Of a stretch of 64,000 nt of DNA, positions 47,381-63,042 are shown piece by piece. Within the stretch, counting starts at the first letter, position 1. Every line of letters begins with the position of its first letter. The notes below the pieces were generated by a model. It saw nothing but the letters and a program-made list of their open reading frames with translations, was not told the DNA's origin and did no database searches. The DNA comes from an alpha proteobacterium AAP38 (GTDB taxonomy: Bacteria > Pseudomonadota > Alphaproteobacteria > Azospirillales > Azospirillaceae). Both the position numbers and the translations under genes were made by a program. The stretch lies in NCBI GenBank assembly GCA_001296005.1, contig LJHR01000005.1, positions 124,001-188,000 on the forward strand, read 5' to 3'.

Positions 47381-47435
47381 GTGCAGTACTCCCGTGTCCA
47401 TGATGCCGGCTTGGATGTCGGCTGCCAAGGAATAG

Positions 47436-47474
47436 TAGCCAATCTCGGCGCCCAATGGTAGCCAATTTTGGATA
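47436..47474. promoter_or_regulatory. Tandem GntR-type operators before the TonB receptor
   Basis: TAGCCAATTTTGGATA at 47459-47474 differs in one base from the palindrome TAGCCAATTTTGGCTA (the other-strand reading of 34651-34666). A weaker copy, TAGCCAATCTCGGC, begins at 47436, so the centres are 23 bases apart, close to two helix turns. They are 56-95 bases upstream of the receptor start. Confidence 0.65.
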
Positions 47475-47577
47475 TTCAGGAGCTTCAAATTCCTGATTCT
47501 TAAAAATCCATATATTTCAATGTTTTGGTTCGGGGAAGCTGTCCTGTATCCGGGACCTTGCCCCGTTAAGCCCCCCT

Positions 47578-48780
47578 TCACGCCAGCATGGCGCCGGGGG
47601 CCAGGGCCAGTGACAGGATGATCAGGCCCAATGCCGGATAGGCCCACCAGCCCATGCCGCGCCAGGCCCGGACCCAGCCATTGCTGCTTTCGGTCCCCGA
47701 TGCGGCGGCGGCGCGAAGGCGCAGGCTGTAGATCATCACCCCGGTCACCGACAGGCCGGTCAGCAGGATGCCCGCCAGGAACCAGACAATCTTTGTGGCA
47801 AAGCCGCCCAGCGTGCCGAAATGCAGGGGGTCTGCCATTTCCGAGATGCGCTGATGGGCCGTCAGTTCCTCCCCCCTGCTGACCAGCAGAACTGCGCCGT
47901 CATCGGGGTTCAGCCAGACCGCGTTCGACCGGTCACGCACCAGCCAGGCATCGGCCTGCCCCATCAACACCAGACCCCGCGCGCCCTTGGCCGTGGGATA
48001 GCGGATTTCGCGTATATCCAGGCCGGGATAGGCGCGCAGGCCCGTCTCGATCAGGGCGTCAAGGGCCGGTCCCACCGGCTGTGCCGCCGTGATGGGGAGG
48101 GCAGGGGCCTTGGGATGGTCAGGCGCGTCGCCACCCAGTGATTCCACCATGTACCAGACGCCGGTCACCGCGATCAGGGCCACGAACCACAGGCTCCACA
48201 GCCCGGCCAGCCGGTGCAGGTCGCCTGACAATCTGCGCCCGTCCCCGCCGCGCGGTCGCTTGAAGAAGCCGCGCCACCATTTCTTGTAGGTGACGATGCC
48301 GCTGACCAGCGATGCTAGCAGCAGGAAGGCCAGGGTGCAGACGATGGGCACCCCCAGCTTCACGGGCAGCATCAGATGACGATGCGTCTCCCGCAGGAAG
48401 CGTTGGATATTGTACCAGCCCACAACCCCTGTGACCCGGCCCGTATAGGGGTCCAGATGCACGCGGGTGGGGCGGGCGGTACCGGTGTCCAGCCAGGCCT
48501 CCGCCGCGAAGCCGGGATGCGGCGGCGCATAGATCTGCGCCAGCCGCCCGCCGGGCACGGCATCCCGCGCTGATGCCGCCAACGTGCCCCAGGAGGCCTT
48601 CGGTCCCTCCTGCGGCATCACCCGCATCGACGGCGTGACCAGCCAGTCCAGTTCGGCGGAGAACACGGCCAGCGTGCCCGTCGCCAGGATGAAGGTCATG
48701 AATAGGGATAGTTTCAGCCCGGCCCAGGCATGGACCGCCCACCAGACCGACCGCCGTTTCCGTTCTGTCGCCGCCGCCAT
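47578..48780 (-). CDS. PepSY-associated membrane protein (iron-reductase-like)
   Basis: A 400-residue inner-membrane protein. Four main helices are seen near residues 20-40 (LSLFMTFILATGTLAVFS), 145-165, 195-215 and 340-360, plus a last one at the C-terminus. Histidines flank helices (VHAWAG, ETHRHLMLP, GDLHRLAGLWS, DPLHFGTLGG), as in periplasmic siderophore-iron reductases of the FoxB/FhuF-like PepSY class. It starts three bases after the stop of a TonB siderophore receptor, so they form a two-gene operon behind the Fur-like box at 50924. Confidence 0.83.
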   Translation of the reverse strand: MAAATERKRRSVWWAVHAWAGLKLSLFMTFILATGTLAVFSAELDWLVTPSMRVMPQEGPKASWGTLAASARDAVPGGRLAQIYAPPHPGFAAEAWLDTGTARPTRVHLDPYTGRVTGVVGWYNIQRFLRETHRHLMLPVKLGVPIVCTLAFLLLASLVSGIVTYKKWWRGFFKRPRGGDGRRLSGDLHRLAGLWSLWFVALIAVTGVWYMVESLGGDAPDHPKAPALPITAAQPVGPALDALIETGLRAYPGLDIREIRYPTAKGARGLVLMGQADAWLVRDRSNAVWLNPDDGAVLLVSRGEELTAHQRISEMADPLHFGTLGGFATKIVWFLAGILLTGLSVTGVMIYSLRLRAAAASGTESSNGWVRAWRGMGWWAYPALGLIILSLALAPGAMLA

Positions 48781-48783
48781 GGC

Positions 48784-50901
48784 TTAGAAGGTCCGGCGCA
48801 GTTCGACGAACCAGGTGCGCGGTTCACCGGGGAAATGGCCATTATGGGTCGTGAAGCCGGACGCGGCATATTCCTTGTCGAACAGGTTCTTCACCCGGAA
48901 CATCGCCTCCGCGAAGCCCAGATCCGTGATGATGGAGGCGTCGAAGATCGTGTAGGGCTTCACCGTCTGGCCGTTCAGGCTGAGGCGCCTTGAGACATGT
49001 TCCCCACCAAAGGCGAAGCCGGTATCGATGGCCGGCACCTGATAGCGGGTCCAGAAGCCAACCTTGTGGCGCGGGGCATTGGCAAAGCGGTTGCCCACGG
49101 CATTGGTAAGGCTCTGCCCCGGCACCGTGCCCGTGATCTTGGTATCGTTATAGCCGTAATTGGCTGTGAACACCCAGTCGGGCGTGATATCGGCGGAAAG
49201 GTCCAGTTCCAGCCCCTTCGCCGTCACCTCGCCCACAGGGCTCAACTGGTTGACGCCATTGACGGGTGACTTGGTGGTGTCGGTCTGCACCATGTTTTCG
49301 CGCACGATGCGGTAGATGGCGCCGTTGGCCTGGATGCGGCCACCCAGCAGCGCCGTCTTTACCCCAGCTTCCACCTGCCGGCCCGTTATCGGGTCAAAGG
49401 GACCGCCGGCATTTTCCGCCTGGCTGGCGATGGCCTGCGGTTCGAAACTGTTAGCGAAGCTGGCATAGAGAGACACTTCGTCGGTGGGCTTGTAGATCAG
49501 GCCCGTCCGCCATGTGTAGTCGCCATCGGAGAAGTCCGAGCCATTGACCCGGTTCACATCCTTGAAATGGTCGTAGCGGATGCCGGCCAGGGCGATCCAG
49601 TGCTGGCCCAGCCCCACCTGATCCTGCAGGTAGACGCCCTGGCGTTCGGCGCGCGTGTCCGTCCGGCTGAACGGCACATTGGACAGGTTGTAGGCGGCAC
49701 CGGAGGTCAGGCCATAGACGCGGTTGGTCAGGCTGGCATCGGGCACGGGGCCGCCGGCATTGCTGGCGCGGGCGGTCCGCTGCAACAGGATCGCATCCTC
49801 GCGGTACCAGTCGCCACCGAACAGGAACTGGTGGTCCAGGCCTGCCAGTTCCGTGTCGGCGATGAAGTTGACGGCAGTGGCCAGGGCATCGCTGTCCCGC
49901 TTCTGGTCGCGGAATTCACGCCGGACCATGTCAAGGATACCGTCGCGGTTGCTGTCATAGGTGCCGCGCGGTTCGTGATATTGCTGCACCTCGTTGGATT
50001 TGAACCAGCGCACGCCGGCATCCATGCGGATGGCGTCGGTCAGCCGCGTATCCAGCTTGGCCTGCAGCACATCGGATTTCAGCTTCGAATAATCCGTCGG
50101 CTCATTATGGTTCCAGGTGATGGGGGCCAGATAGACGCCGTCGTCGGTGACGGGTATGCCGCGCAGGCGGTTGGCGGGCAGGTCCTGGTCATAATGGATG
50201 ACCTGAAGCGTCAGCTTCGTCTCATCCGCCAGACGGATGCGCAGGCTGGCATCGCCGATCGCCGTCTCGTTACCGGCGCCGATCCGGAAACTGTCCATCT
50301 CCTCATAATAGGCGCCGACGCGGTAGGCGAAGCGGCCCTCCTCATCGATGGGACCCGTCACCTCCGCCGCACCGCCCAGACGGTCATAATTGCCGGCAAA
50401 GGCCCGCACCTCGCCCCGGAAATCGTCCTGGGGCGTCTTGGTGACATAATTCAGGGACCCGCCCGGTGCCGCCGGGCCGTACAGCATACCCGCCGGACCC
50501 TTCAGCACCTCCACCCGTTCGATGTTGAACAGCTGCGGTACGGCAAAGCCGATGAACGGGTCACCGCGCATCCCGTCATAATAGGCCTGTTCCTGGCGGA
50601 AGCCGCGGAAGGTGACGCCGGCATAGGTGAAGAAGGACAGGCCGGAAATGTTGCGGTACAGGTCTGTGACGTTGCGCGCGCCTAGATCCTTGATCAGTTC
50701 CGCGTTGATCACCTGTACCGACTGCGGGATGTCCAGGATGTTGGCGGGCACCTTGCCGATGGTGGTTCCTTCCACCCGGTACAGGCGCTGGACGCGGCCC
50801 GTGACGATGATTTCCTCCGTCATCGTTGCCGCCGGTTCCGCCATCGCGGCACCACCCATCAAAGTGGCGGCGCAAACGCCCATCATCCACCATGCCCGCA
50901 T
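48784..50901 (-). CDS. TonB-dependent siderophore receptor (FhuE/FoxA class)
   Basis: A 705-residue receptor. Signal peptide 1-21 (ending GGAAMA); then MTEEIIVTGRV as TonB box, plug with IGKVPANILDIPQSVQVINAEL, GARNVTDLYRNISGLSFF, FRGFRQEQAYYDGMRGDPF and VLKGPAGMLYGPAAPGGSLNYVTKTP, then a barrel ending TWFVELRRTF. The DIPQSVQVI and PAGMLYG motifs are those of the classical siderophore receptor family. ATG 50901 has GGGGG upstream and a perfect Fur-like palindrome 23 bases before it. It pairs with the PepSY gene downstream. Confidence 0.9.
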   Translation of the reverse strand: MRAWWMMGVCAATLMGGAAMAEPAATMTEEIIVTGRVQRLYRVEGTTIGKVPANILDIPQSVQVINAELIKDLGARNVTDLYRNISGLSFFTYAGVTFRGFRQEQAYYDGMRGDPFIGFAVPQLFNIERVEVLKGPAGMLYGPAAPGGSLNYVTKTPQDDFRGEVRAFAGNYDRLGGAAEVTGPIDEEGRFAYRVGAYYEEMDSFRIGAGNETAIGDASLRIRLADETKLTLQVIHYDQDLPANRLRGIPVTDDGVYLAPITWNHNEPTDYSKLKSDVLQAKLDTRLTDAIRMDAGVRWFKSNEVQQYHEPRGTYDSNRDGILDMVRREFRDQKRDSDALATAVNFIADTELAGLDHQFLFGGDWYREDAILLQRTARASNAGGPVPDASLTNRVYGLTSGAAYNLSNVPFSRTDTRAERQGVYLQDQVGLGQHWIALAGIRYDHFKDVNRVNGSDFSDGDYTWRTGLIYKPTDEVSLYASFANSFEPQAIASQAENAGGPFDPITGRQVEAGVKTALLGGRIQANGAIYRIVRENMVQTDTTKSPVNGVNQLSPVGEVTAKGLELDLSADITPDWVFTANYGYNDTKITGTVPGQSLTNAVGNRFANAPRHKVGFWTRYQVPAIDTGFAFGGEHVSRRLSLNGQTVKPYTIFDASIITDLGFAEAMFRVKNLFDKEYAASGFTTHNGHFPGEPRTWFVELRRTF

Positions 50902-50923
50902 TTTTAGAACCCCCACTTGAAAT

Positions 50924-50938
50924 TGCGAATAATTCGCA
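50924..50938. promoter_or_regulatory. Fur-like perfect palindrome before the siderophore receptor
   Basis: TGCGAATAATTCGCA is a perfect 7-1-7 palindrome 23 bases upstream of the receptor start. Its minus-strand form differs by one base from the element at 22620-22634. Placement before two independent TonB/PepSY iron operons supports an iron-responsive operator. Confidence 0.65.
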
Positions 50939-51133
50939 GATGCGATAGCGGGTGAAAGGCAGCGGGTCAACATGCATATGTGCGACACATGCATGCGCGC
51001 AGTTTCGACGGGGATGTATCCGATGCGTTTTCTGTTGCGGAAATGCAGACGGCGGCACAGGTGATATCCTGTGCCGCCGTCTGTGCGAGGGGGAATTGGG
51101 TCGCTGCTGATCTGGATCAGCAGCGACCATTCA

Positions 51134-54082
51134 TCAGAACTTTGCCCGCAGGCCGACATAGTAGGAGCGGCCAACCGCGTCATAGACGGCGACATCGGTG
51201 CTGTTCTGTGAGCTGGCCACGATGGGCAGGCCACGGTCGAACAGGTTGGTGACGCCGGCGCGCAGTTCGATGCTCTCATTGACCCGGACATTGCCGAACA
51301 GGTCGAACAGGTTATAGGCCGGCACGCCGCGCGACGGGTTGGTGGGCGTGGTCACCGCCGTCACGTCGTCCATCGCCCCCTGATACCGCCAGCGCAGACC
51401 GACGCCGAACAGGTCGGAGCGGTAGCCGACGGTGGTCAGCGCCTTCCAGCGCGGCAGGGCGCGGCCCAGCGTGCTGGTATTCACATAATCCTGGAATGCG
51501 CTGCCGGGCAGGGTCTGGATATTGTAGTGGTTCACCCAGCCGATGACGGGCGTGACATAGATCTCGGCGCTGGGATCGCCGACATCGGCACCGATATCCG
51601 ACAGGCTGGCCGACCAGTTGATCTGCACATCGATACCGTCGGTTTCCAGCCCGCCCAGGTTCAGGAAGGGCAGGCTGACATCCTGCAACTGACCCTGTGC
51701 ATCGCGGGTCAGCAACTGGCAGAACTCGTTCGTCGCGGCATAGGTGGGGTTGGAACCGTCGAGATTGTAGCACTTGGACAGGGTGGTGAGGCCCGGCACG
51801 CCGGAGATCACCTCCTTGATCTTGATGTTGTAATAATCAACGGAGATGGTGGTGCCGCCATACCACGGGCTGTCGCCCGGCATGGTCAGGACGGTGCCGA
51901 TATTGAACGTGTCGGCCTTTTCCGGGGTCAGGCCCAGATTGCCACGGATGGTGCCGCCGGTCGCCGTGGTGGGGAAGGTGTAGGTGTCGATGACATTAGC
52001 TGGCACACCCTGTGCGATGCAAAGGGCGCGGACCTGTGCCCCGCCTGCGCCCGTGCGGGCGATGGAGCGCACGTCGCAGGGATCACCGACAGAGGCCGGC
52101 GGTGTGCCGAACTGCACCTGCGTGCCCGTCGGCGGGGAGAACAGTTCCCCGATATTCGGCGCACGCACCGCGCGCTGATATGACCCGCGCAACATCAGCG
52201 CTTCAACGGGTTTCCAGCGCATGTCGCCTTCATAGGATTTGACGCTGCCCGTTGTGGAATAATCCGAATAGCGGGCGGCGGCACCGATGGCTAGTTCCTC
52301 CGCGAACTCCGCCCCGCTGATCAACGGGATATCCACCTGACCGGCAATTTCCTTCAGGTTGATATTGCCGCGTGCCGATGCCGAACCGGTCACCGCCTCG
52401 ATATTCTGGGCGGCCAGATCGCTGTCGGGCGTAAAGCGATAGGTGTTGCGGCGGTAGGAGGCGAGCAACGCCACTTGCAACGGACCGGCGGGCAGTTCGA
52501 CCACGGGGCCGGACAATTGCCCCTGCACCTGGCTCTGGGTCAGCTTTTCTGTGCTGAGCGCCGTCTTGGTCATATAGGTTTTGCAGGCGTCGGAGATGCG
52601 GGTGGAATTGCTGATCCCGAACGGGTTGAACCCGCCGGCGCACAGCGAATTGCCGCCATCCGCCGCGTTCAGCAGGTTCTGCACCTTGCTTTTCACGACG
52701 GCATTATACAGCGCCTGATCATGCAGGCTCTCGTCATAGGAGCTGTAGAGATCCCATTTCCAGCTGCCGGCCAGATCGCCTTTCAGGCCCAGGGCAAACT
52801 GACTGACCTTGTACTGTTCGTCCCAGTTCTTGTCGGCGATACCGACGTAACGCCCGTTCCAGGTGAAAGGCGCGTTGGGATTGGGGCGCGATGCCAGGAT
52901 GGCGCGCAGGTCGGCGGGAATGAAGGGATTGGTGGTCGGGATCGTGGTCAGATTGCCGATCTGGGTCAGGCTGCCGCCGCTTTCCGTATTCACGACGCTA
53001 TCGACATGCATGAACTGGCCATAGGCGGTGACGCCGTCGGCCACTTCATAATCGAAGGAACCGAAGGCGGTCTTGCGTTCCAGGGAGTTCTGGAACTGAA
53101 CCTGCTGTCCCACGGGCATGCGGACATTGCCGGCGATAATGGCATAACCATTATCCGTCGGACCCTTGTAGTTCAGGGCGCCCGTCTGCACGAACAGCGA
53201 ACCGTCATTATTGAAGCCCAGGTTCAGTGTGCGGCCCACGGTGGAGGTGACGCCATATTTGGCAAAGACGCTGTTGATGGCGGCCTGGGTCGGCAGGTTG
53301 GCGGCGTTGGGCACATAGGTGCCGGTGCCGATGAAGGAGGAGGGGGTGACGAATTCGAAAAATGAACGCTTGGACCCCTGCAGGCCCGGACGGTCCGTAT
53401 AGCTGGCCGTCAGCATCATGTGGCCCTTGTCGTCGGCAAAGGCGCTGCCCAGTGTGACGGACGCGGATTTCTTGAACACGTCGCCGCGTTCATCCTGACC
53501 GAACTGCACATCGGCGCGGACACCGTCAAAGGGCTGGATGGTCTTGAAATTGACCACGCCGGACATGGCGTCGGAACCATAGATGGCAGACGCACCGCCC
53601 GTGATCACATCGACGCTGCCGATGATGGCTTCGGGCAGGATGTTGATATCGACATTGCCGTTAATGTCCGACAGCGGCAGGCGCTTGCCGTTCAGCAGCA
53701 CCAGATTGCGGTTGGAGCCAAGGCCGCGCAGGTTCAGGCTGGCGCGGCCACCGCCGCCCTGTCCGCCTGTGCTGGACGTGCCGGCGGCGGTGAAGGAAGG
53801 CAGCTGATTCAGCGCCGCCTCAACCTCTACCTGGCCGCTTTCCTTGATGGATTCCGTCGATACTGTGGTGATGGGGCTGACCGCGACATTGTTGGGCCGC
53901 TGGATCAGGGAGCCGGTGACCACAATCTCTTCGATCAGCTCCGTCTTGCCGGCGTCGGCCTGCTGTGCCAGCGCCGGGCCTGCCAGCATCATGCCGGCGG
54001 CCAGCGACAGGGCCAGCGGCGAGGCCGTTTGCCGCAACCGGCCATGCACCGGCGGGCGCGTCTTGATCATCTTCTTGTCCAC
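51134..54082 (-). CDS. Large TonB-dependent receptor of the plant-ester/quinate cluster
   Basis: A 982-residue receptor, longer than siderophore types. The best start is GTG at 54082 (VDKKMIKT), six bases after GGGGAGGAAAA; ATG 54070 is second. Signal peptide ends GPALAQQ near residue 40. The plug has IEEIVVTGSLIQRPNNVAVSPITTVS, ALNQLPSFTAAGTSSTGGQGGGG, LNLRGLGSNRNLVLLNGKRLPL and VDVITGGASAIYGSDAMSGVVNF. This form is common in receptors for complex carbohydrates and plant compounds. It lies 92 bases after an exported esterase on the same strand, whose promoter has a TetR-like operator, so it likely imports a hydroxycinnamate or quinate ester. Confidence 0.88.
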   Translation of the reverse strand: MDKKMIKTRPPVHGRLRQTASPLALSLAAGMMLAGPALAQQADAGKTELIEEIVVTGSLIQRPNNVAVSPITTVSTESIKESGQVEVEAALNQLPSFTAAGTSSTGGQGGGGRASLNLRGLGSNRNLVLLNGKRLPLSDINGNVDINILPEAIIGSVDVITGGASAIYGSDAMSGVVNFKTIQPFDGVRADVQFGQDERGDVFKKSASVTLGSAFADDKGHMMLTASYTDRPGLQGSKRSFFEFVTPSSFIGTGTYVPNAANLPTQAAINSVFAKYGVTSTVGRTLNLGFNNDGSLFVQTGALNYKGPTDNGYAIIAGNVRMPVGQQVQFQNSLERKTAFGSFDYEVADGVTAYGQFMHVDSVVNTESGGSLTQIGNLTTIPTTNPFIPADLRAILASRPNPNAPFTWNGRYVGIADKNWDEQYKVSQFALGLKGDLAGSWKWDLYSSYDESLHDQALYNAVVKSKVQNLLNAADGGNSLCAGGFNPFGISNSTRISDACKTYMTKTALSTEKLTQSQVQGQLSGPVVELPAGPLQVALLASYRRNTYRFTPDSDLAAQNIEAVTGSASARGNINLKEIAGQVDIPLISGAEFAEELAIGAAARYSDYSTTGSVKSYEGDMRWKPVEALMLRGSYQRAVRAPNIGELFSPPTGTQVQFGTPPASVGDPCDVRSIARTGAGGAQVRALCIAQGVPANVIDTYTFPTTATGGTIRGNLGLTPEKADTFNIGTVLTMPGDSPWYGGTTISVDYYNIKIKEVISGVPGLTTLSKCYNLDGSNPTYAATNEFCQLLTRDAQGQLQDVSLPFLNLGGLETDGIDVQINWSASLSDIGADVGDPSAEIYVTPVIGWVNHYNIQTLPGSAFQDYVNTSTLGRALPRWKALTTVGYRSDLFGVGLRWRYQGAMDDVTAVTTPTNPSRGVPAYNLFDLFGNVRVNESIELRAGVTNLFDRGLPIVASSQNSTDVAVYDAVGRSYYVGLRAKF

Positions 54083-54174
54083 GTTTTCCTCCCCTTTTTG
54101 GCGTGCAGGGGTCACCGTTCCGGCAACGGCACGGGCCCCGGCTTTGCTTTTGCTGATTGTGCGACCGGTCCCCG

Positions 54175-55257
54175 TCAGCGGGGGCCGATTGCCGTCTGGA
54201 TGAAATCAAGCGTGTCGGCCAGTGCCTGACGGCTGACCTCCACGGTGCGTTCGGGCTTTTCGGCGATCCAGCTATGGTTGGCACCGTCGAAAATGCGGGT
54301 CTTTACCGAGATATTGGCGGCGGCCAAAGCCGAGGCGAACCGGTCCTGCTGCGCCACCGGCACGACATTGTCGTCCCTTCCATGCAGCAGCAGGAAGGGC
54401 GGGTCCTTGGCATCGACATGCGCGATGGGCGAGGCCTGGCGCACCCGGTCAGCGTCACAGCCGCTACCCGTGCAGCCCAGGAACCGGCGCATAGGCTCCG
54501 TCGGCGGCGCATCCTTGTTCAGGTAGCTGGGCATGGTGGCCAGATCATAGATCCCGAACCAGGAGACGACCGCCTGTACACAATCCGACGCCTGTTCCAC
54601 CCCGCCCGCACCCGTGGGGACGGTTTCAACGGTGGCGGGCCGGGCGGGGGCCGGTGCATCCTCTGCAAAGGCCGGGTCGGCGCAGCTGGCCCCCACCAGG
54701 GCCGCCAGATGACCGCCCGCCGACTGTCCCCAAGCGGCGAAACGGGTGGGATCGACACCGAACCGGGAACCATTGGCGCGCAGCCAGCGGATGGCGGATT
54801 TCACATCCTTGGCCGCAGCGGGGAACGGCGCCTCGCCGGAGAAACGGTAACTTACGGAGGCCACGACATAGCCCTGGGCCGCGATGGAGGCCAGAACCTT
54901 GGGCCAATCCTGGAAGGCCGCACTGCGGCGCGGGCCACCACCCATCCAGCCGCCGCCATGGATATAGACGATGACGGGCCGGGTCTTGCCATCCTGTCCC
55001 GCACCTGCCGGCAGGAACAGATCCAGCTTCAGCGGCCGGTAACCGGGCACGGTCTTATAGACCACATCCGGCATCCCCGTCACGCCACCGGCAAACGGAA
55101 CCGTGATGGTGGAAAAGGTATCTGCCCCCACCTGCTGTACCGAGGCGCCGACAGCGGCACTGGCCGCGACATCGGCGCCACCGGCATGGGCCACAGGCCC
55201 GATGGCCATGGCCGACAGGCACAGGAACGCGGATATGGCGGTGACGGAACGCTTCAT
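54175..55257 (-). CDS. Exported esterase, BD-FAE/lipase-like alpha/beta hydrolase
   Basis: A 360-residue hydrolase with signal peptide (cleavage after VAHA, residue 25). The oxyanion motif HGGGW is at 100-104, the nucleophile S179 in WGQSAGGHLAAL, the acid in LHGRDDNVVP and the base in DGANHSW. This is the hormone-sensitive lipase/BD-FAE arrangement that includes feruloyl esterases. An insertion around 195-225 is rich in Ala and Pro. A TetR-like operator lies 85 bases upstream of the start at 55257, and the large TonB receptor follows. Periplasmic hydrolysis of chlorogenate-type esters would fit; direct proof is absent. Confidence 0.83.
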   Translation of the reverse strand: MKRSVTAISAFLCLSAMAIGPVAHAGGADVAASAAVGASVQQVGADTFSTITVPFAGGVTGMPDVVYKTVPGYRPLKLDLFLPAGAGQDGKTRPVIVYIHGGGWMGGGPRRSAAFQDWPKVLASIAAQGYVVASVSYRFSGEAPFPAAAKDVKSAIRWLRANGSRFGVDPTRFAAWGQSAGGHLAALVGASCADPAFAEDAPAPARPATVETVPTGAGGVEQASDCVQAVVSWFGIYDLATMPSYLNKDAPPTEPMRRFLGCTGSGCDADRVRQASPIAHVDAKDPPFLLLHGRDDNVVPVAQQDRFASALAAANISVKTRIFDGANHSWIAEKPERTVEVSRQALADTLDFIQTAIGPR

Positions 55258-55341
55258 TCTTCCCCCCGACCCTTATTTTTGATTTTGCTGGTCCCGACGG
55301 ACGATGCCAGACGGCCCGACTTTTCTTTCGATGGAGTTAAT

Positions 55342-55359
55342 GTACGAAACAGTTCGTAC
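55342..55359. promoter_or_regulatory. TetR-like operator before the exported esterase
   Basis: GTACGAAACAGTTCGTAC is a perfect palindrome with seven-base arms and a four-base centre. It lies between the TetR gene and the esterase start (85 bases upstream of it). A 15/18 match stands at 60248-60265. Confidence 0.75.
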
Positions 55360-55432
55360 GTCGTCAATTGTGTTTGTTATGCCGCAGTGCGTTTCTTTGC
55401 GGATGCTGGAAATCCGTTATGGGGAGCGCCTT

Positions 55433-56101
55433 TCAGCCCTTGCGGCACCAGGTCATGACGATCTCCACCACCTGTTCCTTGCGTCGTGCCGCAGCCTCTT
55501 CGGACCCCAGCTCGTACCCGAAGATGGTGGAGAAGGTGTAGCGGTTGGAGACGTTGTAGAAGCTGAGCGCGCTGATGGTCATGTGCAGCTCGACCGGGTC
55601 GATATCCGCCCGGAACAGCCCTTCGGCCACGCCCTTGTCCAGAATGGCCTTCAGGCCCTGGATCACATGCTGGCTGCGGCGCTTGATGCCGTCGACATTG
55701 CCGATGAACGACCCGTGCAGGATGTTTTCGTTCATCACCAGCCGGACGAATTCCGGGTTCTTGAAATGGTGGTCGAAGGTCAGGCGGATATGGGCCTTCA
55801 ATGCCTCTTCCGCGCCGACATCCAGGATGGGCAGGGCCGCCTCCGAATCACGGATGGCGATATATTCCTGTTCCAGGACAGCCTGATACAGCCCTTCCTT
55901 CGATCCGAAATGGTAATAGATCATCCGCTTGGACGTGTCGGTCTTTTCCGCGATCTCGTCGATGCGGGCACCCATCAGGCCCTTGTCAGCGAATTCGCGG
56001 CGGGCCACGGCCAGGATATTGGCCTTGGTCTCATCGGCTTCGGCGGCGCGGGGATTGCGGGCCGGGGTTGCCGATTTCGACTTGGGCGCCGGGGCGTTCA
56101 T
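55433..56101 (-). CDS. TetR-family regulator
   Basis: A 222-residue repressor. The helix-turn-helix is in residues 25-72 (ETKANILAVARREFADKG, then ARIDEIAEKTDTSKRMIYYHFGSKEGLY), preceded by a basic, disordered-looking N-terminus (APAPKSKSATPARNP). The C-terminal half (HHFKNPEFVRLVMNENILHGSFI) resembles the TetR_C subgroup seen with aromatic and quinate genes. It lies within the ester/quinate gene set on the same strand and close to two matching palindromes (55342 and 60248), so it probably controls both promoters, with a pathway intermediate such as quinate, dehydroshikimate or protocatechuate as inducer. Confidence 0.9.
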   Translation of the reverse strand: MNAPAPKSKSATPARNPRAAEADETKANILAVARREFADKGLMGARIDEIAEKTDTSKRMIYYHFGSKEGLYQAVLEQEYIAIRDSEAALPILDVGAEEALKAHIRLTFDHHFKNPEFVRLVMNENILHGSFIGNVDGIKRRSQHVIQGLKAILDKGVAEGLFRADIDPVELHMTISALSFYNVSNRYTFSTIFGYELGSEEAAARRKEQVVEIVMTWCRKG

Positions 56102-56170
56102 GGATGATCCGTTGGATGATGATGGTGCGGGGCCACAGGATAATGCGGCCCCGCGCGTTTTGAAGCGAAT

Positions 56171-56653
56171 TCAGCCTTCCGCCGCAAAGACACTGATGAT
56201 CACGGCCCCGCCACCGGGCACGGGCGTGATCCTTCCTACGAAAATGCGGCGGTTCAGCCATTCATATTTGCCGGCGGGCGCGTGGAAGGCGGGTGTGGTC
56301 ATCAGGTAACGTGGGTCGGGGACCGACAGGCCCTTGTTATGCACAATGATGACGGCGCCATCATCGGTGCGCAGGGAATAGAGCGCCTCGATCTCCCGCA
56401 CGCCGTCGGGTCGGTCGATCTGCCAGTCGGCACCGCCGGCCATGACCTCCCCCTTGATCCCATCACCCGTGAAGGTGCCGCCGGTGATGGGGATGAAGCG
56501 GCGCTTGCCATGGTCGCTCACCCCCACCTCCACCGCCGGATCGACGGTGACGCGGGCCTGGAGGACCAGGCGCAGGCCGGGGGTGGGTACCGGCTCATAG
56601 GCCTGGATGGTGGCGGGACAAAGCAGCATCAGCAGCAGAAGCAGGTATTTCAT
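56171..56653 (-). CDS. Exported DUF3237 protein
   Basis: A 160-residue protein with a signal peptide (MKYLLLLLMLLCPATIQA). The mature part is a DUF3237 beta-barrel: GLRLVLQARVTVDP, KRRFIPITGGTFTGDGIKGEVMAGGADWQI, REIEALYSLRTDDGAVI, then RYLMTTPAFHAPAGKYEWLNRRIFVG. The family has no settled function but commonly occurs beside aromatic or ester catabolism genes. It begins 11 bases after the carboxylesterase stop and is thus in that operon. It might bind or lactonise an ester product in the periplasm; this is speculation. Confidence 0.8.
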   Translation of the reverse strand: MKYLLLLLMLLCPATIQAYEPVPTPGLRLVLQARVTVDPAVEVGVSDHGKRRFIPITGGTFTGDGIKGEVMAGGADWQIDRPDGVREIEALYSLRTDDGAVIIVHNKGLSVPDPRYLMTTPAFHAPAGKYEWLNRRIFVGRITPVPGGGAVIISVFAAEG

Positions 56654-56664
56654 GATGTCGTCCC

Positions 56665-58245
56665 TCAATCCCGCACGCGCGGCGTGCTGGACGGTGCCGG
56701 GGGTGGTGCTTCCCACCCGGCCAGCACGTCCAGCGTGGTATAGCGTGGCCAGTCCGCCACCCTTACCTGCTCCCCCAGTTCCATCAGGCGCGGCTTCTTC
56801 GCATCGAAACGCGGCCAGTCGGGTGACGGGGCGGCACCCCTGGCAAAGGACAGCAGCATGGATTGCATGCGGGTGGCGAGGTCCATATCCACCGATTCCC
56901 AGTTGCGGGTGCGGCGGAACAGGTTCAGCGCGTCCAGCGTACCCAGCCAATAGGGCACATCGCCCGTATGATAGGCGCCCACCGTCGCCGGATCATGGTC
57001 GGCGAAGCGGATGCCCGGTGTGTAGGGATGGCGGCGCGTGAACAGCCAGACATAGGCCGGCTGCTTCTGCGCGCGTGCCCAGGAAGCGACCTGCCGGCCC
57101 ACGGTGGCGTCACGCTGGATATCGGTGATGGCGCGGGGAATGCCGCCTGCATCCTTGACGGCATAGGCCTTCAGGACCTTGTCCGCCACATTGGGGAAGG
57201 ATTGCCGGATCAGCGCCTCATAGGCGGGCAGATCGGCGGCATTGCCCAGCGTGCGGAAGCTTTCATCGCGGGTGAAGCCGATCATCACCGGCACGTCGCT
57301 ATGCCCGTCCGTCTTCATCGCCTGATCGGGCGGCAGCGGCAGCACCTTGCCGTCCAGAACGATGGGGGAGCGGCGGGGCAAGGGCGTGGCGATGATCCGG
57401 TCGCCGGCCGCCGCGCGCATGTCGGCCAGGGAGCCGGCCTTCAGCGCGTCCTGCAACCGCTTGCCGTCCGCCTCCGCATCGGCGAGCGGGATGGGCGGCA
57501 GCAGGGCACCGAACGGGCTTCCGCTCATGCCGACGGCTCGGTGGAACAGGCCCTTGGCCTCCGGACTGGCCATCAGCAGGCCGATGGACATCGATCCCGC
57601 CGATTGCCCCACCAGGGTGACATTGCCGGGGTCACCACCGAAGCCCGCAATATTCTCCCGGACCCAGCGCAGGCCCTGTATCTGGTCCATCAGCCCGTAA
57701 TTGCCGGAATGTCCCCCGCCTTCCGCCGTCAGTTCGGGATGGGCCAGAAAGCCCAGCGTGCCGACACGGTAGGAAAGGGCGACATAGACCACGCCCTGCT
57801 TTGCCAGAAACTCCCCGGAATAGTTGGGCATGCTGGCGGAGCCGACATTGAACGCCCCGCCATAGATCCAGACCATCACCGGATAGGGCTTGCCCGCCGG
57901 CGCCGGTTCTTTAGGTGCCCAGACATTCAGGTACAGGCAATCCTCGCTGATCGCCTCATGCCCGAAATAATGGTTGATGGTGGACCCGCGCATGGGTTGC
58001 AGGCACATGGGTGCGAAACGGTCGGCATGCAGCACACCGTTCCAGCCCTGTACCGGCTGCGGCGGGCGCCAGCGCAGATCGCGCAGGGGCGGGGCGGCGA
58101 ACGGCACACCCAGAAAGGCGTTGACGCCGCTGTCCAGCAATTTGCCCTCAATCACACCGCCATCGACCTTCACGGTCTGGGCGGATGCCATAACGGGCAG
58201 GGACAGGCAGGCAACGCCCAGCAGCAGGCGGGACCAGATGGACAT
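56665..58245 (-). CDS. Exported type B carboxylesterase
   Basis: A 526-residue carboxylesterase/p-nitrobenzyl esterase-type enzyme with a signal peptide (cleavage near SAQ, residue 22). EDCLYLNVW (101-109), the oxyanion motif YGGAFNVGS, the nucleophile S215 in LVGQSAGSMS, an acid in GFTRDESFRTL and the histidine in GAYHTGDVPYWLG are all present. Type B esterases include chlorogenate and tannin-type esterases. Placement between quiC and the TetR gene suggests it frees quinate or shikimate from phenolic esters. Start 58245 is 47 bases after quiC. Confidence 0.88.
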   Translation of the reverse strand: MSIWSRLLLGVACLSLPVMASAQTVKVDGGVIEGKLLDSGVNAFLGVPFAAPPLRDLRWRPPQPVQGWNGVLHADRFAPMCLQPMRGSTINHYFGHEAISEDCLYLNVWAPKEPAPAGKPYPVMVWIYGGAFNVGSASMPNYSGEFLAKQGVVYVALSYRVGTLGFLAHPELTAEGGGHSGNYGLMDQIQGLRWVRENIAGFGGDPGNVTLVGQSAGSMSIGLLMASPEAKGLFHRAVGMSGSPFGALLPPIPLADAEADGKRLQDALKAGSLADMRAAAGDRIIATPLPRRSPIVLDGKVLPLPPDQAMKTDGHSDVPVMIGFTRDESFRTLGNAADLPAYEALIRQSFPNVADKVLKAYAVKDAGGIPRAITDIQRDATVGRQVASWARAQKQPAYVWLFTRRHPYTPGIRFADHDPATVGAYHTGDVPYWLGTLDALNLFRRTRNWESVDMDLATRMQSMLLSFARGAAPSPDWPRFDAKKPRLMELGEQVRVADWPRYTTLDVLAGWEAPPPAPSSTPRVRD

Positions 58246-58292
58246 GTTTCCTCCGTGATTCTGTTGCTTTTAGTGGGCGCTGTTCCGCGCCT

Positions 58293-60185
58293 TCAATAAA
58301 CGGTGTCGGTGTTGAATCGGGACTGCGCCGCCAGTCGGACAGCGGCATTGGCGGCGCCGTACGCGTCGTACCCGCGCCGTTCCACGAATTCGAAGAAGAA
58401 GCGTTTCGCGAAGGCGCGGGAGTAAAGCTGGAAGAACTCCGCCTCGTCGGTCCGGTCATAGAGGATGTCATGTGCCGCCATCCGTTCCACCAGATCGGGG
58501 TCCAGGCCGAACCGCGCCTCGATATCATCATAGTAATTGCGCGGGATGGGGAGGCGTTCCAGCCCGCGTTCCTGCAACGCCTTTGCGGTCGCAAATATAT
58601 CGCCGGTGGCCAGCGCCACATGCTGCACGCCCGCACCCAGATAATGGTTCAGGAAGCGCGATGTCAGGGTCTGTGCCGCCGCAGAGCCGTTCAGAGTCAC
58701 ACGGAACGAACGGTCGCCATTCTCGATCGCCTGACTATGGACGATGCCCAGCGGATCGGCGATTTCGAGCTGCGGCGTCTTGGTCACGTCGAACAGCGCG
58801 AAATAATAGAGCAGCCAGGACAGGAATTCCTCATACCCCATGGCCTGGGCGATATGGTCGATGCGGCTCAGGCCAACGCCGGGCACCGGCACCTCTGTCA
58901 GCGGCACGAAGTCATTGCGCCAGACCTGTTCCTGGGTCCCGTCCTCGATGAAATAGATCAGGCTGCCGCCCACCCCGCGCACGCAGGGAATATCCATTTC
59001 CCCCGGTCCCACGGCCTGGGCGAAGCGGGGGATGCGCAGGCTGTCGGCACGGTCCAGCGCCGCCGGCACATCATGCACCCGCAGGGCCAGTGCACAGACT
59101 GACGCGCCATGCACGATGGAATGGCTGTGGGCAAAGCCCTCCGTCTCTCCATTCAGGACGATGTTGATGTCGCCCTGACACCAGCGGGTGACGGCCTTGC
59201 TGATATGCCGCCCCACCGGTTCAAAACCCATGGTGGCCAGCATGGCGCCCAGCGGCCCCGCCTCTTCCTCCGTTGCGGCGAATTCGATGAATTCTACGCC
59301 ACGCACATCAATGCGCGGAGGCATGGTGGCGGGCCGCTTTAGCCGGGCCAGCGCCTCATCCTCCACCAGTTTCAGCGAGCGATAGCCATCCAGGGCGATG
59401 CCGGAGGCGGAGCCGGCGCGGAACCGGTCGTTGAAAATCTCCAGCGACAGCGGCCCGCGATAGCCTATGGCGATCAGCGCCTTCACATAATCGGTGATGG
59501 GCAGGTCGCCTTGGCCCGGCATATTGCGGAAATGCCGGCTCCAGTACAGGTGATCCATGTCCAGGCGCGGGGCGTCGGCAATCTGCACGATGAACAGCTT
59601 GGCCGGATCAATGTCGCGGATGCTGTCGATGGGCACATTGCGGGCCAGGGAATGGAAACTGTCCAGGATCAGGCCGATATTCGGATGGTTGACACGGTGG
59701 ACAATGTCCCAGGCGTCGCGGTGATCATGCACATGCCGACCCCAGGCCAGCGCCTCATACCCCACGCGCAACCCCTGCGCTGCGGCCAGTTCGCCCAGGT
59801 CGCGGAAATCATCCACGATGCGCCCGCGTTCCGGCAGCGATTGCGGCGAGACGTTGGAACAGACCAGCAGCAGGTCGGTACCCAGTTCCGCCATCACATC
59901 GAACTTGCGCAGCATCCGTTCGAAGGTGCGGGTGCGCAGGGTGCCGGGCATGCCCTCAAAATCGCGGAAGGGCTGAAACATGGTGATGGTCAGACCCAGA
60001 TCGGCCGCGATGCGCCGCACATCGGCGGGGCGTCCATCGAAGGTCAGAAGGTCGTTCTCGAAAATCTCGACACCGCTGAACCCGGCCGCCGCCGCCGCTT
60101 CGAGCTTGCCGGTCAGGGTGCCACTGATCGACACGGTCGCGATGGATTTGGCCAGGCCGCCGGTCGGCAATTCCGCCCGTTCCAT
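58293..60185 (-). CDS. quiC: 3-dehydroshikimate dehydratase, QuiC type (fused to HPPD-like domain)
   Basis: A 630-residue two-domain enzyme that turns 3-dehydroshikimate into protocatechuate. Residues 1-280 are a xylose-isomerase-like TIM barrel with metal ligands E144 (GYEALAW), D175 (LILDSFHS), Q201 (IVQIADAP) and E249 (SLEIFND). Residues 295-630 are a vicinal-oxygen-chelate half like 4-hydroxyphenylpyruvate dioxygenase, with H444 (RIDHIAQ), H522 (VQHVALAT) and E599 (FFFEFVER) as an intact iron triad. This fusion is known from QuiC1 of Pseudomonas putida; the role of the second domain is unsettled. A TetR-like operator lies 63 bases upstream of the start, shared with the divergent aroQ. Confidence 0.92.
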   Translation of the reverse strand: MERAELPTGGLAKSIATVSISGTLTGKLEAAAAAGFSGVEIFENDLLTFDGRPADVRRIAADLGLTITMFQPFRDFEGMPGTLRTRTFERMLRKFDVMAELGTDLLLVCSNVSPQSLPERGRIVDDFRDLGELAAAQGLRVGYEALAWGRHVHDHRDAWDIVHRVNHPNIGLILDSFHSLARNVPIDSIRDIDPAKLFIVQIADAPRLDMDHLYWSRHFRNMPGQGDLPITDYVKALIAIGYRGPLSLEIFNDRFRAGSASGIALDGYRSLKLVEDEALARLKRPATMPPRIDVRGVEFIEFAATEEEAGPLGAMLATMGFEPVGRHISKAVTRWCQGDINIVLNGETEGFAHSHSIVHGASVCALALRVHDVPAALDRADSLRIPRFAQAVGPGEMDIPCVRGVGGSLIYFIEDGTQEQVWRNDFVPLTEVPVPGVGLSRIDHIAQAMGYEEFLSWLLYYFALFDVTKTPQLEIADPLGIVHSQAIENGDRSFRVTLNGSAAAQTLTSRFLNHYLGAGVQHVALATGDIFATAKALQERGLERLPIPRNYYDDIEARFGLDPDLVERMAAHDILYDRTDEAEFFQLYSRAFAKRFFFEFVERRGYDAYGAANAAVRLAAQSRFNTDTVY

Positions 60186-60247
60186 ATGCCCCTCCCTTCT
60201 CGTGATTGCTGCTGATTATCGGGTCGTTGAAAGACGCGCCTTGACGT

Positions 60248-60265
60248 GAACGTACTATTTCGTAC
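60248..60265. promoter_or_regulatory. Second TetR-like operator, between quiC and aroQ
   Basis: GAACGTACTATTTCGTAC matches 15 of 18 bases of the other-strand form of the palindrome at 55342-55359. It lies in a larger symmetric context, GTGAA (60246-60250) and TTCAC (60269-60273), and in the middle of the divergent promoter, so one bound dimer could control both directions. Confidence 0.65.
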
Positions 60266-60339
60266 ACATTCACGCAACGGCCAATCCCATGGGCCGATCA
60301 ACGACAAACACCGCCTCTCACCGGGCGCAGGGGGGAATT

Positions 60340-60804
60340 TTGCCGGACCCTGTGGAACGAAAGCCTGTTCACATCCTGAATGGGCCCAATCTGAATTTGC
60401 TGGGCACGCGGGAGCCGGAAAAGTACGGTCGCCGCACCCTTGCCGATATCGAGGATAGCTGCCGCCAGCATGCGCAGTCGCTGGGCCTGTCGGTCATCTG
60501 CCGGCAGAGTAACCATGAAGGCGCGCTGATCGACTGGATCCACACGGCGCGCGGGCAAGCGGCGGGGATCATCATCAATCCCGGCGCCTACACCCACACC
60601 TCGGTCGCTATCATGGATGCGCTGCTGGCCTGCGCCGTTCCGGTGGTGGAGGTGCATCTGACCAACATTCACCGGCGGGAAGCCTTCCGCCACCATTCCT
60701 ACGTCTCGCTGGCGGCGACGGGTGTCATTTGCGGCCTTGGTGCCGATGGATATCTGGCCGCCCTCACCTTTCTCGGCAACAGCCTGGGGAACAGCCCATC
60801 ATGA
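60340..60804 (+). CDS. aroQ: 3-dehydroquinate dehydratase, type II
   Basis: A type II dehydroquinase of about 154 residues, converting 3-dehydroquinate to 3-dehydroshikimate. [20 protein letters not shown] contains the catalytic tyrosine; [47 protein letters not shown] complete the active site. The start is uncertain: ATG 60289 has no ribosome site and would lie close to the operator, while TTG 60340 has GGGGGGAA five bases before it and gives a family-like N-terminus. TTG is preferred. The stop overlaps the next gene (ATGA). In this cluster it serves quinate breakdown rather than aromatic biosynthesis. Confidence 0.9.
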
Positions 60805-61652
60805 GCGGGAAATCCATCCTCGCGGGCCTGATCGGGTCGGGGATACAGGCATCCCTGACACCGCGCATGCATGAACAGGAGGGGGCGCGTCAGGGCCTCC
60901 GCTACGTCTATCGCCTGATCGACCTGAAACAGTTGGGTCTGGATGTGACGGCCTTGCCCGATCTGGTGGCGGGGGCGCAGCGGTTCGGCTTCAACGGCCT
61001 GAACATCACCCACCCCTGCAAGCAGGCGGTGATCCCGCTGCTGGACGAATTGTCACCCGAAGCCGCCGCCATCGGTGCCGTCAACACTGTCGTCCTGAAG
61101 GACGGGCGTAAGACTGGCCACAATACCGACTGGTGGGGTTTCGCCGAGGGGTTCCGGCGTGGCCTGCCTGATGCCGATCTGCGCCATGTGGTGCAATTGG
61201 GTGCGGGTGGGGCCGGGGCCGCCGTCGGCTATGCGTTGCTACGGCTGGGTGCCGAACGCCTGTCGATCTTCGACGTGCAGTTGGCGCGGGCCACGGAGCT
61301 GGCTGACCGTCTGAACAGCCTGTTCGGGGAAGGGCGCGCCAGGGCCGTGCAGTCACCGGATGCGGTGCTGCCCCACGCCCATGGTCTGGTGAACACCACG
61401 CCGCGCGGCATGGCCGACTATCCGGGCCTGCCAGTGGGACAAGGGCTGCTGCGCCCCGACCTCTGGGTGGCGGAGATCATCTATTTCCCCATCGAGACGG
61501 AACTGCTGCGCACGGCCCGCCAGCTTGGCTGCCGCACGCTGGATGGTGGCGGCATGGCCTTGTTCCAGGCGGTGGGCGCCTTCCAGCTGTTTACCGGCAT
61601 CGAACCGAATGCCGGTGACATGGGGGCGGATTTCAAGGCAATGCTGGGATAA
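60801..61652 (+). CDS. Quinate/shikimate dehydrogenase (AroE family, catabolic type)
   Basis: A 283-residue NAD(P)-linked dehydrogenase oxidising quinate to 3-dehydroquinate and/or shikimate to 3-dehydroshikimate. [20 protein letters not shown] replaces the SxS-type N-terminus of biosynthetic AroE and is the sign of the bacterial quinate/shikimate group. Catalytic Lys and Asp are in [10 protein letters not shown] and HNTDWWGF; the Rossmann loop is [10 protein letters not shown], with an aspartate at the end of the next strand (IFDVQ), which favours NAD. It overlaps aroQ by four bases and precedes an aromatic-acid transporter. Confidence 0.9.
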
Positions 61653-61704
61653 GCAAAGCGGAGTGGCCCGATAGAAGGCCATGCGCGGTGCAGGGAGGAA
61701 AAGA

Positions 61705-63042
61705 ATGTCGAACAAGCCGGGCCACAAGACCGACCGGGCCAGCGCCGAATTCCAGGCGCGTGTCGCCGCCCTGGAGGCGGCTCCCATGGGGCGCACGCGC
61801 CTGATCGTGGTGCTGCTCTGTTTTGTCCTGAACCTGCTGGACGGGGTGGATGTGGTGCTGCTGACCTATGCGGCACCAGTCATCGCCCAGGAATGGGGGC
61901 TGAAGGATGGGGCGCTGGGCATTGTGCTGACGGCTAGCCTGCTGGGCACGGCCTTCGGATCGATGCTGATGGGGCCGGTGGCCGACATGATCGGCCGGCG
62001 CAAGGTGGTGCTGATCGCCATCACCCTGATCGGTTCCGGCATGCTGCTGGCGGCCACGGCCCATGACATGGTGATGCTGGCCGTCTGGCGGGTGCTGACG
62101 GGGGTGGGTATCGGTGCCATCCTGGCCTCCATGGCCTCCATAACCTCGGAATTCTCGAATGCCCGGCTGCGCAGCTTCTGGGTTGCGTTCCTGCAGGCCG
62201 GTTGGCCAATCGGGGCCATCATCACGGGCTTTGCGTCCGCCGTCTTGATCCAGGCCTATGGCTGGAAGCCTTTGTTTGTCGGATCGGGCATGCTGTCGGT
62301 CATCATCCTGCCGGTTGTCGCCTGGCTGATGCCGGAATCATTGCAGTTCCTGGCCAAACAGGATGCGCCCGACCGGTTGGCGCGCATGAACCGTCTTCTG
62401 GAGAAACTGGGTCAGCCGGCCCTGAACGAAGCGCCGCCGCTGTCGGCCAAGCGTGGGGTGAAACTGTCTGCCCTGTTCGAGGGGCATCTGGCCCGCTCCA
62501 CCCCCGCCTTGTGGCTGGGTATGACCATGGGCTGGGCCGGGCTTTACTTCCTGATCAGCTGGATCCCCCGCATCGCCGTCAATGCCGGCCTGCCGCTGGA
62601 TCAGGCCATCATGGCGGGTGCCACCTTCAATATCGGCGCTTTCATCGGCAGTGCGGGCATCGGCCTTCTGGCGACCCGGTTGCCGTTGAACCGGCTGATC
62701 CCTGGGTTCCTGGGTGCTGCGACCCTGGCGATGCTGCTGTTCGGCTGGGTCTCCCTGCCGATCATGGCAACCTTCGCCACCATCCTGGTCCTGGGTGTGC
62801 TGGTACAGGGCGGGTTCAACGCCTTCTACCCAATGGCGGCACAGCTTTATCCCACGGAAATCCGCACCACAGGCATCGGCACCGCCATGGCCGTGGGTCG
62901 CAGCGGCGCCATCCTGGGTCCGCTGGCGGCGGGTTACCTGATGCAGAACGGTACCGATCGCGGCATGCTGTTCCTGATCTATGCGGTACCACTGGCCATC
63001 GCGGCCCTGGCGGCATGGCGGGTTGCGTCCAAGCCGTCATGA
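61705..63042 (+). CDS. MFS transporter, aromatic acid:H+ symporter type (quinate/shikimate cluster)
   Basis: A 445-residue, 12-helix transporter. FVLNLLDGVDVVLLTYAAPVIAQEWGL is the first helix with the AAHS acidic motif (LDGVD), and GPVADMIGRRKVVL is the loop 2-3 motif. It probably imports quinate, shikimate or a phenolic acid such as protocatechuate. GGGAGG followed by six bases marks the ATG at 61705; an ATG at 61681 is in frame but lacks a site. It follows the dehydrogenase by 52 bases. It differs from the ferulate-side AAHS protein at 4299 in length and sequence, so the window has two such carriers. Confidence 0.88.
   Translation: MSNKPGHKTDRASAEFQARVAALEAAPMGRTRLIVVLLCFVLNLLDGVDVVLLTYAAPVIAQEWGLKDGALGIVLTASLLGTAFGSMLMGPVADMIGRRKVVLIAITLIGSGMLLAATAHDMVMLAVWRVLTGVGIGAILASMASITSEFSNARLRSFWVAFLQAGWPIGAIITGFASAVLIQAYGWKPLFVGSGMLSVIILPVVAWLMPESLQFLAKQDAPDRLARMNRLLEKLGQPALNEAPPLSAKRGVKLSALFEGHLARSTPALWLGMTMGWAGLYFLISWIPRIAVNAGLPLDQAIMAGATFNIGAFIGSAGIGLLATRLPLNRLIPGFLGAATLAMLLFGWVSLPIMATFATILVLGVLVQGGFNAFYPMAAQLYPTEIRTTGIGTAMAVGRSGAILGPLAAGYLMQNGTDRGMLFLIYAVPLAIAALAAWRVASKPS

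Follow-up and report, generated by a model that had tools for sequence, protein, structure and literature searches.

A 64,000-nucleotide (nt) stretch of the genome of the alpha proteobacterium AAP38 (contig LJHR01000005.1, positions 124,001 to 188,000; called the window below) carries a quinate/ester gene set that includes the gene of a TetR-family regulator. Two palindromes located in this set are very likely the operators of the intervening TetR protein, which would act as a local repressor occluding RNA polymerase at the promoters of the set. The genome is Niveispirillum-like and 5.78 Mb in size. The palindromes, the promoter-like elements around them and the regulator gene are listed here in window coordinates.

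55342..55359, minus strand: operator 1, perfect 7+7 palindrome GTACGAAACAGTTCGTAC (minus strand GTACGAACTGTTTCGTAC)
55362..55367, minus strand: -35-like hexamer TTGACG of the esterase-TonB promoter, within columns invariant in five genomes
55339..55344, minus strand: -10-like hexamer TACATT of the same promoter, overlapping operator 1, 17-bp spacer (sequence and genus alignment)
60248..60265, plus strand: operator 2, imperfect palindrome GAACGTACTATTTCGTAC between the divergent quiC and aroQ genes
60241..60246, plus strand: -35-like hexamer TTGACG of the aroQ-aroE-MFS promoter, within columns invariant in four genomes
60263..60268, plus strand: -10-like hexamer TACACA of the same promoter, overlapping operator 2, 16-bp spacer (sequence and genus alignment)
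60249..60277, minus strand: possible weak promoter of quiC, TTGCGT-N17-TACGTT, overlying operator 2; a proposal, its columns invariant in four genomes
55433..56101, minus strand: TetR-family regulator of 222 amino acids with TetR_N and TetR_C_29 domains (Pfam)

A first-pass annotation of the window had given both palindromes at these coordinates, the first as perfect and the second as a match to it in the other-strand form, with the TetR gene between them, and all of this proved correct. On its other strand operator 2 reads GTACGAAATAGTACGTTC, and 15 of its 18 bases match operator 1. It deviates from the palindrome at 2 of 14 positions (3 of 16 in the 16-position form), operator 1 at none of 14. 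The annotation had also described the sites as bracketing the gene set; instead they lie within it, as the set extends from approximately 51134 to 63042.

When the window was searched for GTACGAA-N4-TTCGTAC with up to three mismatches, four matches were found against 0.54 expected, and none of 100 shuffles reached four. At up to two mismatches the window contained operators 1 and 2 only. The genome-wide scan that had been suggested in the first-pass annotation detected the perfect palindrome a single time, as operator 1. At up to two mismatches the same scan returned four places, versus seven for the reversed-pattern control, and over 11 genomes of the genus 37 sites were counted versus 54 for the control; both comparisons weigh against the operator interpretation. 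Because two-mismatch sites are at the control level, operator 2 is not significant by sequence alone and needs independent support. Such support was provided by its promoter context, by its identity in four of four genus genomes and by conservation of the motif outside the genus. Two places with two mismatches were considered as regulon members and rejected. One (C17) lies between open reading frames (ORFs) that were read as thioredoxin-like and argH, with no family search, and was not found in other genus genomes. The other (C26:24084-24101; L157 4085) is situated inside a predicted ORF, recurs in G068 and in no other genus genome, and was treated as chance.

Both operators fall inside spacers between -35- and -10-like hexamers (TTGACG to TACANN), as judged from the sequence. 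Operator 1 overlaps the predicted minus-strand promoter of the esterase-TonB genes and operator 2 the predicted plus-strand promoter of aroQ-aroE-MFS, which agrees with the two promoters named in the first-pass annotation. The predicted transcription starts are near 55330 on the minus strand and near 60275 on the plus strand. The composite TTGAC-N3..6-AC-N8-TCGTACA occurs at exactly two places in the genome, operators 1 and 2; the pattern was derived from these operators, and its result shows uniqueness, not discovery. The association of a -35-like word with the palindrome was also seen elsewhere. In a sample of 61 distinct core sites (at most 1/12 mismatches to the conserved core described below) from 119 loci outside the genus, with identical contexts merged and related species not independent, an exact TTGAC was present 0-5 nt outside the palindrome at 30 sites, whereas the mean of 60 word permutations was 1.35. 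The runner-up word, TGACT (15), was largely a shifted reading of TTGACT, and in the shifted control, 8-13 nt from the palindrome, TTGAC was found at two sites.

Within the genus, quiC, tetR (97-100% identity) and the perfect site co-occur in the same five of 11 genomes (G000, G068, G071, G072 and G075). The other six contained none of the three at the thresholds used (E <= 1e-50 for quiC, E <= 1e-30 for tetR), and four of these six hold scattered two-mismatch matches to the palindrome. Operator 1 is letter-identical in all five tetR-bearing genomes. Operator 2 is letter-identical in the four genomes whose contig reaches that place, the G072 contig ending inside quiC. The invariant runs over the two composites extend over 34 columns (55335-55368, five sequences) and 65 columns (60228-60292, four sequences). 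Since the genus genomes are close, this conservation is supportive, not decisive. These data bear on the possibility that only operator 1 works as a TetR site, operator 2 being a decayed or very weak copy and aroQ-aroE-MFS and quiC being controlled otherwise. The mismatches of operator 2 and the background frequency of two-mismatch sites given above are in line with it. However, operator 2 is unchanged within its 65 invariant columns, if in close genomes, and it shares the TTGAC-operator-TACA layout. Moreover, a variant half like that of operator 2, GTACGAACYAGTACGTTC, occurs upstream of related Azospirillaceae tetR genes, at a distance of ~180 bp in L020 and L021 and ~1 kb in L019 (L211 is the same place as L019). 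We consider a single working operator unlikely, and keep both palindromes as the predicted sites of the TetR protein.

To look beyond the genus, 80 loci were collected by TetR similarity, of which 77 (L038-L114) were used and three, lying within the genus, were left out. With at most 2/14 mismatches the palindrome gave 37 matches in 26 of the 77 loci. The mean of 420 half-site permutations, the palindrome itself included, was 1.85, and the next-best permutation gave 24 matches. Only the 4-base gap stood out, other gaps yielding 10 matches or fewer. The conserved core of the motif is ACGAAC-NN-GTTCGT. It was found within 350 nt upstream of tetR in 21 of the 77 loci at up to one mismatch and in 35 at up to two; among the 60 core permutations the best of the others reached 1 and 16 loci, respectively. 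In a de novo search of 38 loci without a strict site, ACGAAC-TA-GTTCGT ranked first with a score of 455 versus 445 for a different motif, a small margin. In the Rhizobiales set ACGAACCGGTTCGT came first (387, next 328). The motif was included among the seeds of these searches, and the winning runs began from random seeds. Several results of this survey speak against the operator interpretation: 51 of the 77 related loci have no strict site (at most 2/14 mismatches), the de novo search of the Azospirillaceae and Sphingomonadales tetR-upstream sets did not return the motif, and the recognition helix TSKRMIYYHF, being the same in many of the loci that lack a strict site, does not discriminate. 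A difference in the recognition helix as a mark of strict-site loci was accordingly abandoned, the comparison of loci with and without strict sites having given no separation.

The genes beside the conserved sites were identified on a rough map based on codon composition. In loci of Sphingobium, Sphingomonas and Kaistia, promoters of quinate genes carry the palindrome. In L038-L040, which are from Sphingobium and Sphingomonas, the sites occupy promoters of the set other than the tetR-upstream one: the first separates aroE from an esterase-TonB pair like that of the window, and the second is upstream of the carboxylesterase gene (L038, L039) or of quiC (L040). In the Aureimonas, Aurantimonas and Rhizobium loci the site precedes tetR, and the Aureimonas and Rhizobium loci also hold quiC and aroE. 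Genes of a TRAP transporter are found on the other side of the tetR-upstream site in L091 and L099. The second site of L099 is upstream of quiC and of an ORF sized like the cyclase-family gene of L091; in the latter, an Aureimonas cluster, a gene for a putative cyclase-family protein (2936-3766) is positioned between quiC and aroE. Genome-wide scans for L040, L044 and L099 at up to 2/16 mismatches gave five places (two, one and two, respectively), every one of them in the quinate locus. The core is also present upstream of tetR in beta-proteobacteria (L059, L067, L068, L082). In the Sphingomonas populi locus (L085, 3023-8633) quiC is represented only by short matches in two frames, as if decayed, and two-mismatch copies of the operator persist there.

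The comparative results bear directly on chance as the origin of the palindromes. In its favour is the number of two-mismatch matches in the genome, which does not exceed the control, but the controls with permuted palindromes, other gaps, permuted cores and shifted or permuted -35 words rule it out for practical purposes. Chance is strongly disfavoured, and is the least probable of the explanations considered here.

Two scans were independent of TetR similarity. In the first, 289 genomes of the class were searched for the pattern with at most 1/16 mismatches. Six genomes matched, two of them members of the genus. G139 has three sites, located in a quinate cluster that includes a TetR relative, and in G264 a single site lies between aroE and a TetR_C_29 gene. 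The remaining two of the four non-genus genomes (G091 and G145) have their sites at unrelated or unrecognised genes, which counts against exclusiveness of the motif for quinate genes. The G091 stretch (L153) has two identical perfect 18-bp palindromes GTACGAACATGTTCGTAC ~2 kb apart (1357-1374 and 3415-3432), near DUF2092, DUF1254/DUF1214 and MlaC-like genes; perhaps they are the similar operator of another regulator. For the G145 stretch, with one site, the rough codon-composition map returned no ORFs.

In the second scan QuiC was searched in 387 genomes of the class and found in 41. From 39 non-genus genomes 41 QuiC stretches were mapped, 40 fetched by QuiC and one (L152 of G139) for its sites; a TetR relative was counted as present at 110 bits or more. 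The core (at most one mismatch) was present in 10 of the 16 stretches with a TetR relative versus 1 of the 25 without (Fisher p 6.5e-5). When TTGAC 0-3 nt away was required together with the core at up to three mismatches, the counts were 8 of 16 versus 1 of 25. Both comparisons indicate that the motif follows TetR, not merely the quinate genes. The only match without TetR (L199), flanked by aroE and a TonB gene, is close to where the stretch ends, and its TetR gene may be outside the fetched DNA. Some points reduce the weight of these counts. The L198 match is remote and probably due to chance (without it, 9 of 16 and p 2.6e-4), six of the 16 stretches with QuiC and TetR lack the core at one mismatch, related species are not independent, and the stretches are 10-20 kb long and in some cases cut by contig ends, so that a TetR gene counted as absent may lie outside. 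Co-occurrence with TetR was observed, as were the sites themselves, their promoter-like context and their conservation. Conservation in relatives that carry the same genes, on which the first-pass annotation had staked its interpretation, was found in the genus, in the Sphingobium, Sphingomonas, Kaistia, Aureimonas and Rhizobium loci, and among the QuiC stretches, and its reading of the palindromes as putative TetR operators is supported.

The same counts were used to weigh whether some other protein, either a different TetR paralogue or one of LysR type, regulates the quinate genes through the palindrome, the adjoining TetR being incidental. A LysR-type ORF adjoins one site in L099 and an equal-sized ORF occupies that place in L103, and a TetR search of the genome gave 23 loose candidates, the window TetR included. 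On the other hand, the core tracks the window-type TetR among the QuiC stretches, the sites directly adjoin tetR in L041 and L152, and in the genus the perfect site is missing wherever tetR is missing (as is quiC). An assignment to another regulator is therefore quite improbable, and the adjoining TetR is retained as the predicted binding protein.

For binding, repression, autoregulation and induction we infer the following scheme. Each palindrome appears to be part of a promoter of the sigma-70 type: it occupies the spacer between -35 and -10, and its terminal TAC also belongs to the -10 hexamer. In this position a bound TetR dimer would exclude RNA polymerase. Operator 1 would control the esterase-TonB genes. 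Operator 2 would control aroQ-aroE-MFS; given its central position in the divergent quiC-aroQ gap of ~100 bp, its control would probably also extend to quiC-carboxylesterase-DUF3237-tetR. As operator 2 is upstream of quiC and tetR follows quiC on the same strand, such control would imply autoregulation of tetR. Entry of quinate, shikimate or an early product, for instance 3-dehydroshikimate, into the cell would release TetR from DNA and allow joint expression of the genes for uptake, for ester cleavage and for protocatechuate formation. The site-bearing loci of different lineages mostly have quiC and aroE, and often aroQ, in common, while transporters and esterases vary. An ester or protocatechuate is for this reason a less likely inducer than quinate, shikimate or an early product (for example 3-dehydroshikimate), one of which is the probable ligand. 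Some TetR-family proteins act as activators, and the window TetR might bind as an activator or dual regulator and not as a simple repressor. The location of the sites between -35 and -10, with overlap of the -10 hexamer, is one that excludes polymerase, and activation was judged slightly less probable still than an assignment to another regulator.

The remaining genes of the set are these.

51134..54115, minus strand: TonB-dependent receptor (Pfam)
54175..55257, minus strand: alpha/beta-hydrolase esterase of the BD-FAE family, downstream of operator 1 (Pfam)
56171..56653, minus strand: DUF3237 protein (Pfam)
56665..58245, minus strand: carboxylesterase of the COesterase family (Pfam)
58293..60185, minus strand: QuiC-like 3-dehydroshikimate dehydratase (NF042435, 668.9 bits, residues 12-623, below the cut-off of 1200)
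60289..60804, plus strand: AroQ, type II 3-dehydroquinate dehydratase (TIGR01088, 196 bits, cut-off 169.85)
60801..61652, plus strand: AroE-like shikimate/quinate dehydrogenase (PRK12549, 441.7 bits, cut-off 235)
61681..63042, plus strand: MFS transporter, top NCBIfam match aromatic acid/H+ symport (TIGR00895, 319.1 bits, below the cut-off of 418.55)

On the minus strand the order is quiC, carboxylesterase, DUF3237, tetR, BD-FAE-type esterase and TonB receptor; aroQ, the aroE-like dehydrogenase gene and the MFS transporter gene are on the plus strand, divergent from quiC. The true start of AroQ may be near 60340-60352. Curated cut-offs were passed by AroQ and by the AroE-like protein in its shikimate-dehydrogenase subfamily; with the quinate/shikimate dehydrogenase model PRK14027 the latter scored 286.6 bits, under the cut-off of 515. 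QuiC, falling short of the NCBIfam equivalog cut-off, is a homologue and not a certified equivalog, which also counts against our interpretation. As QuiC and the MFS protein are below curated cut-offs, the quinate assignment relies on near-full-length homology and gene company. The closest solved relative of the carboxylesterase by sequence is fumonisin B1 esterase; for the BD-FAE-type esterase it is Lip_vut4, with GH43-linked and acetyl xylan esterases ranking next. We suggest that the esterases and the TonB receptor import and cleave quinate esters such as chlorogenate. A possible onward route from protocatechuate is offered by three matches to LigB-family extradiol dioxygenases in the genome (278.7, 140.7 and 96.4 bits, cut-off 26.3) or by one partial match to an intradiol dioxygenase (38.6 bits, cut-off 27.3, positions 23-97 of 182), matches that do not indicate substrates. 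Two more TonB-dependent receptor genes adjoin the set, one of siderophore type by NCBIfam (48784-51291) and one recognised by sequence (45269-47647), with a membrane protein ORF (47578-48780) between them. No operator with up to two mismatches was found in this region (45269-51291).

The origin of the set was addressed with a quick tree of 90 of 106 TetR rows, in which group labels were assigned by hand from record titles and several long branches occur elsewhere. The rows dropped beforehand were L035, the Azospirillaceae rows L023, L024, L026-L028, L030-L032 and L034, and L043, L077, L089, L096, L107 and L109. Three Niveispirillum TetRs grouped with three sphingomonad TetRs (L038, L040 and L039 being the nearest rows) with a value of 97 in the Shimodaira-Hasegawa-like approximate likelihood ratio test (SH-aLRT), and this group is nested in a set of 36 to which all 31 sphingomonad-labelled rows belong. 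A constraint placing the Niveispirillum TetRs with their own family, Azospirillaceae, was rejected (approximately unbiased (AU) test, p 9e-119). This nesting and the scattered occurrence of tetR and quiC in the genus (5 of 11 genomes) point to horizontal gain of the gene set with its regulator and operators. With slightly better than even confidence we propose that the system is a portable switch: a TetR subfamily travelling with quinate genes in Alphaproteobacteria (with relatives in beta-proteobacteria) and a composite promoter-operator consisting of TTGAC, 0-3 bases and a ACGAACYRKTTCGTACAY-type site, copies of which would recruit lineage-specific uptake and ester-cleaving genes. In Rhizobiales the genes so recruited would be those of TRAP transporters, in sphingomonads and Niveispirillum those of the TonB receptor and the esterases. 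A sphingomonad would, in this proposal, have passed the gene set to Niveispirillum along with its regulator and operators.

In the open text of PMC, whose coverage leaves out most subscription journals, searches combining TetR with quinate, 3-dehydroshikimate dehydratase with TetR, and chlorogenate with TonB and esterase found, among the matches listed, no report of a TetR-type quinate regulator or of such an operator. Similarly, none of the four 14-base operator forms occurred in open-paper text among the matches listed, which were two 10-mers in papers with unrelated titles. As far as this openly accessible text goes, a TetR switch for quinate genes is apparently undescribed, and the kind of regulation is well known. 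The analysis provides a specific, predicted regulator-operator pair for quinate use in Alphaproteobacteria, with a possible application as part of a quinate- or shikimate-responsive biosensor. The shared operator ties the TonB receptor and the esterases to quinate metabolism, and suggests that the natural food is a quinate ester from plants, chlorogenate for example.

The quinate regulators QsuR and QuiR (LysR type) and PcaU (IclR type) control genes for the conversion of quinate to protocatechuate; unlike these, the window regulator is a TetR_C_29 protein. Its helix-turn-helix domain TetR_N scored 53.0 bits (cut-off 24) and its TetR_C_29 domain 136.9 bits (cut-off 26.2). The top NCBIfam match is RutR, the regulator of pyrimidine use, but with 55.2 bits the protein stays far under the cut-off of 368 of the RutR equivalog TIGR03613, the genes are others, and the TTGACC-type RutR operator differs from the window palindrome. 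The best solved chain by sequence is a TetR family regulatory protein (PDB 3npi, 75.3 bits, residues 27-216), of low similarity to the window TetR and with no function given in its PDB record. KstR-type operators, TNNAACNNGTTNNA, have the AAC-NN-GTT centre in common with the window palindrome, which differs in its outer ACG/CGT and in its gene set. With local repressors of the TetR/tetO type the predicted system shares, by sequence, the combination of TetR_N and TetR_C domains, the palindrome in the promoter and the regulator gene beside its targets; unlike them, the window TetR is predicted to control a quinate/ester catabolic set.

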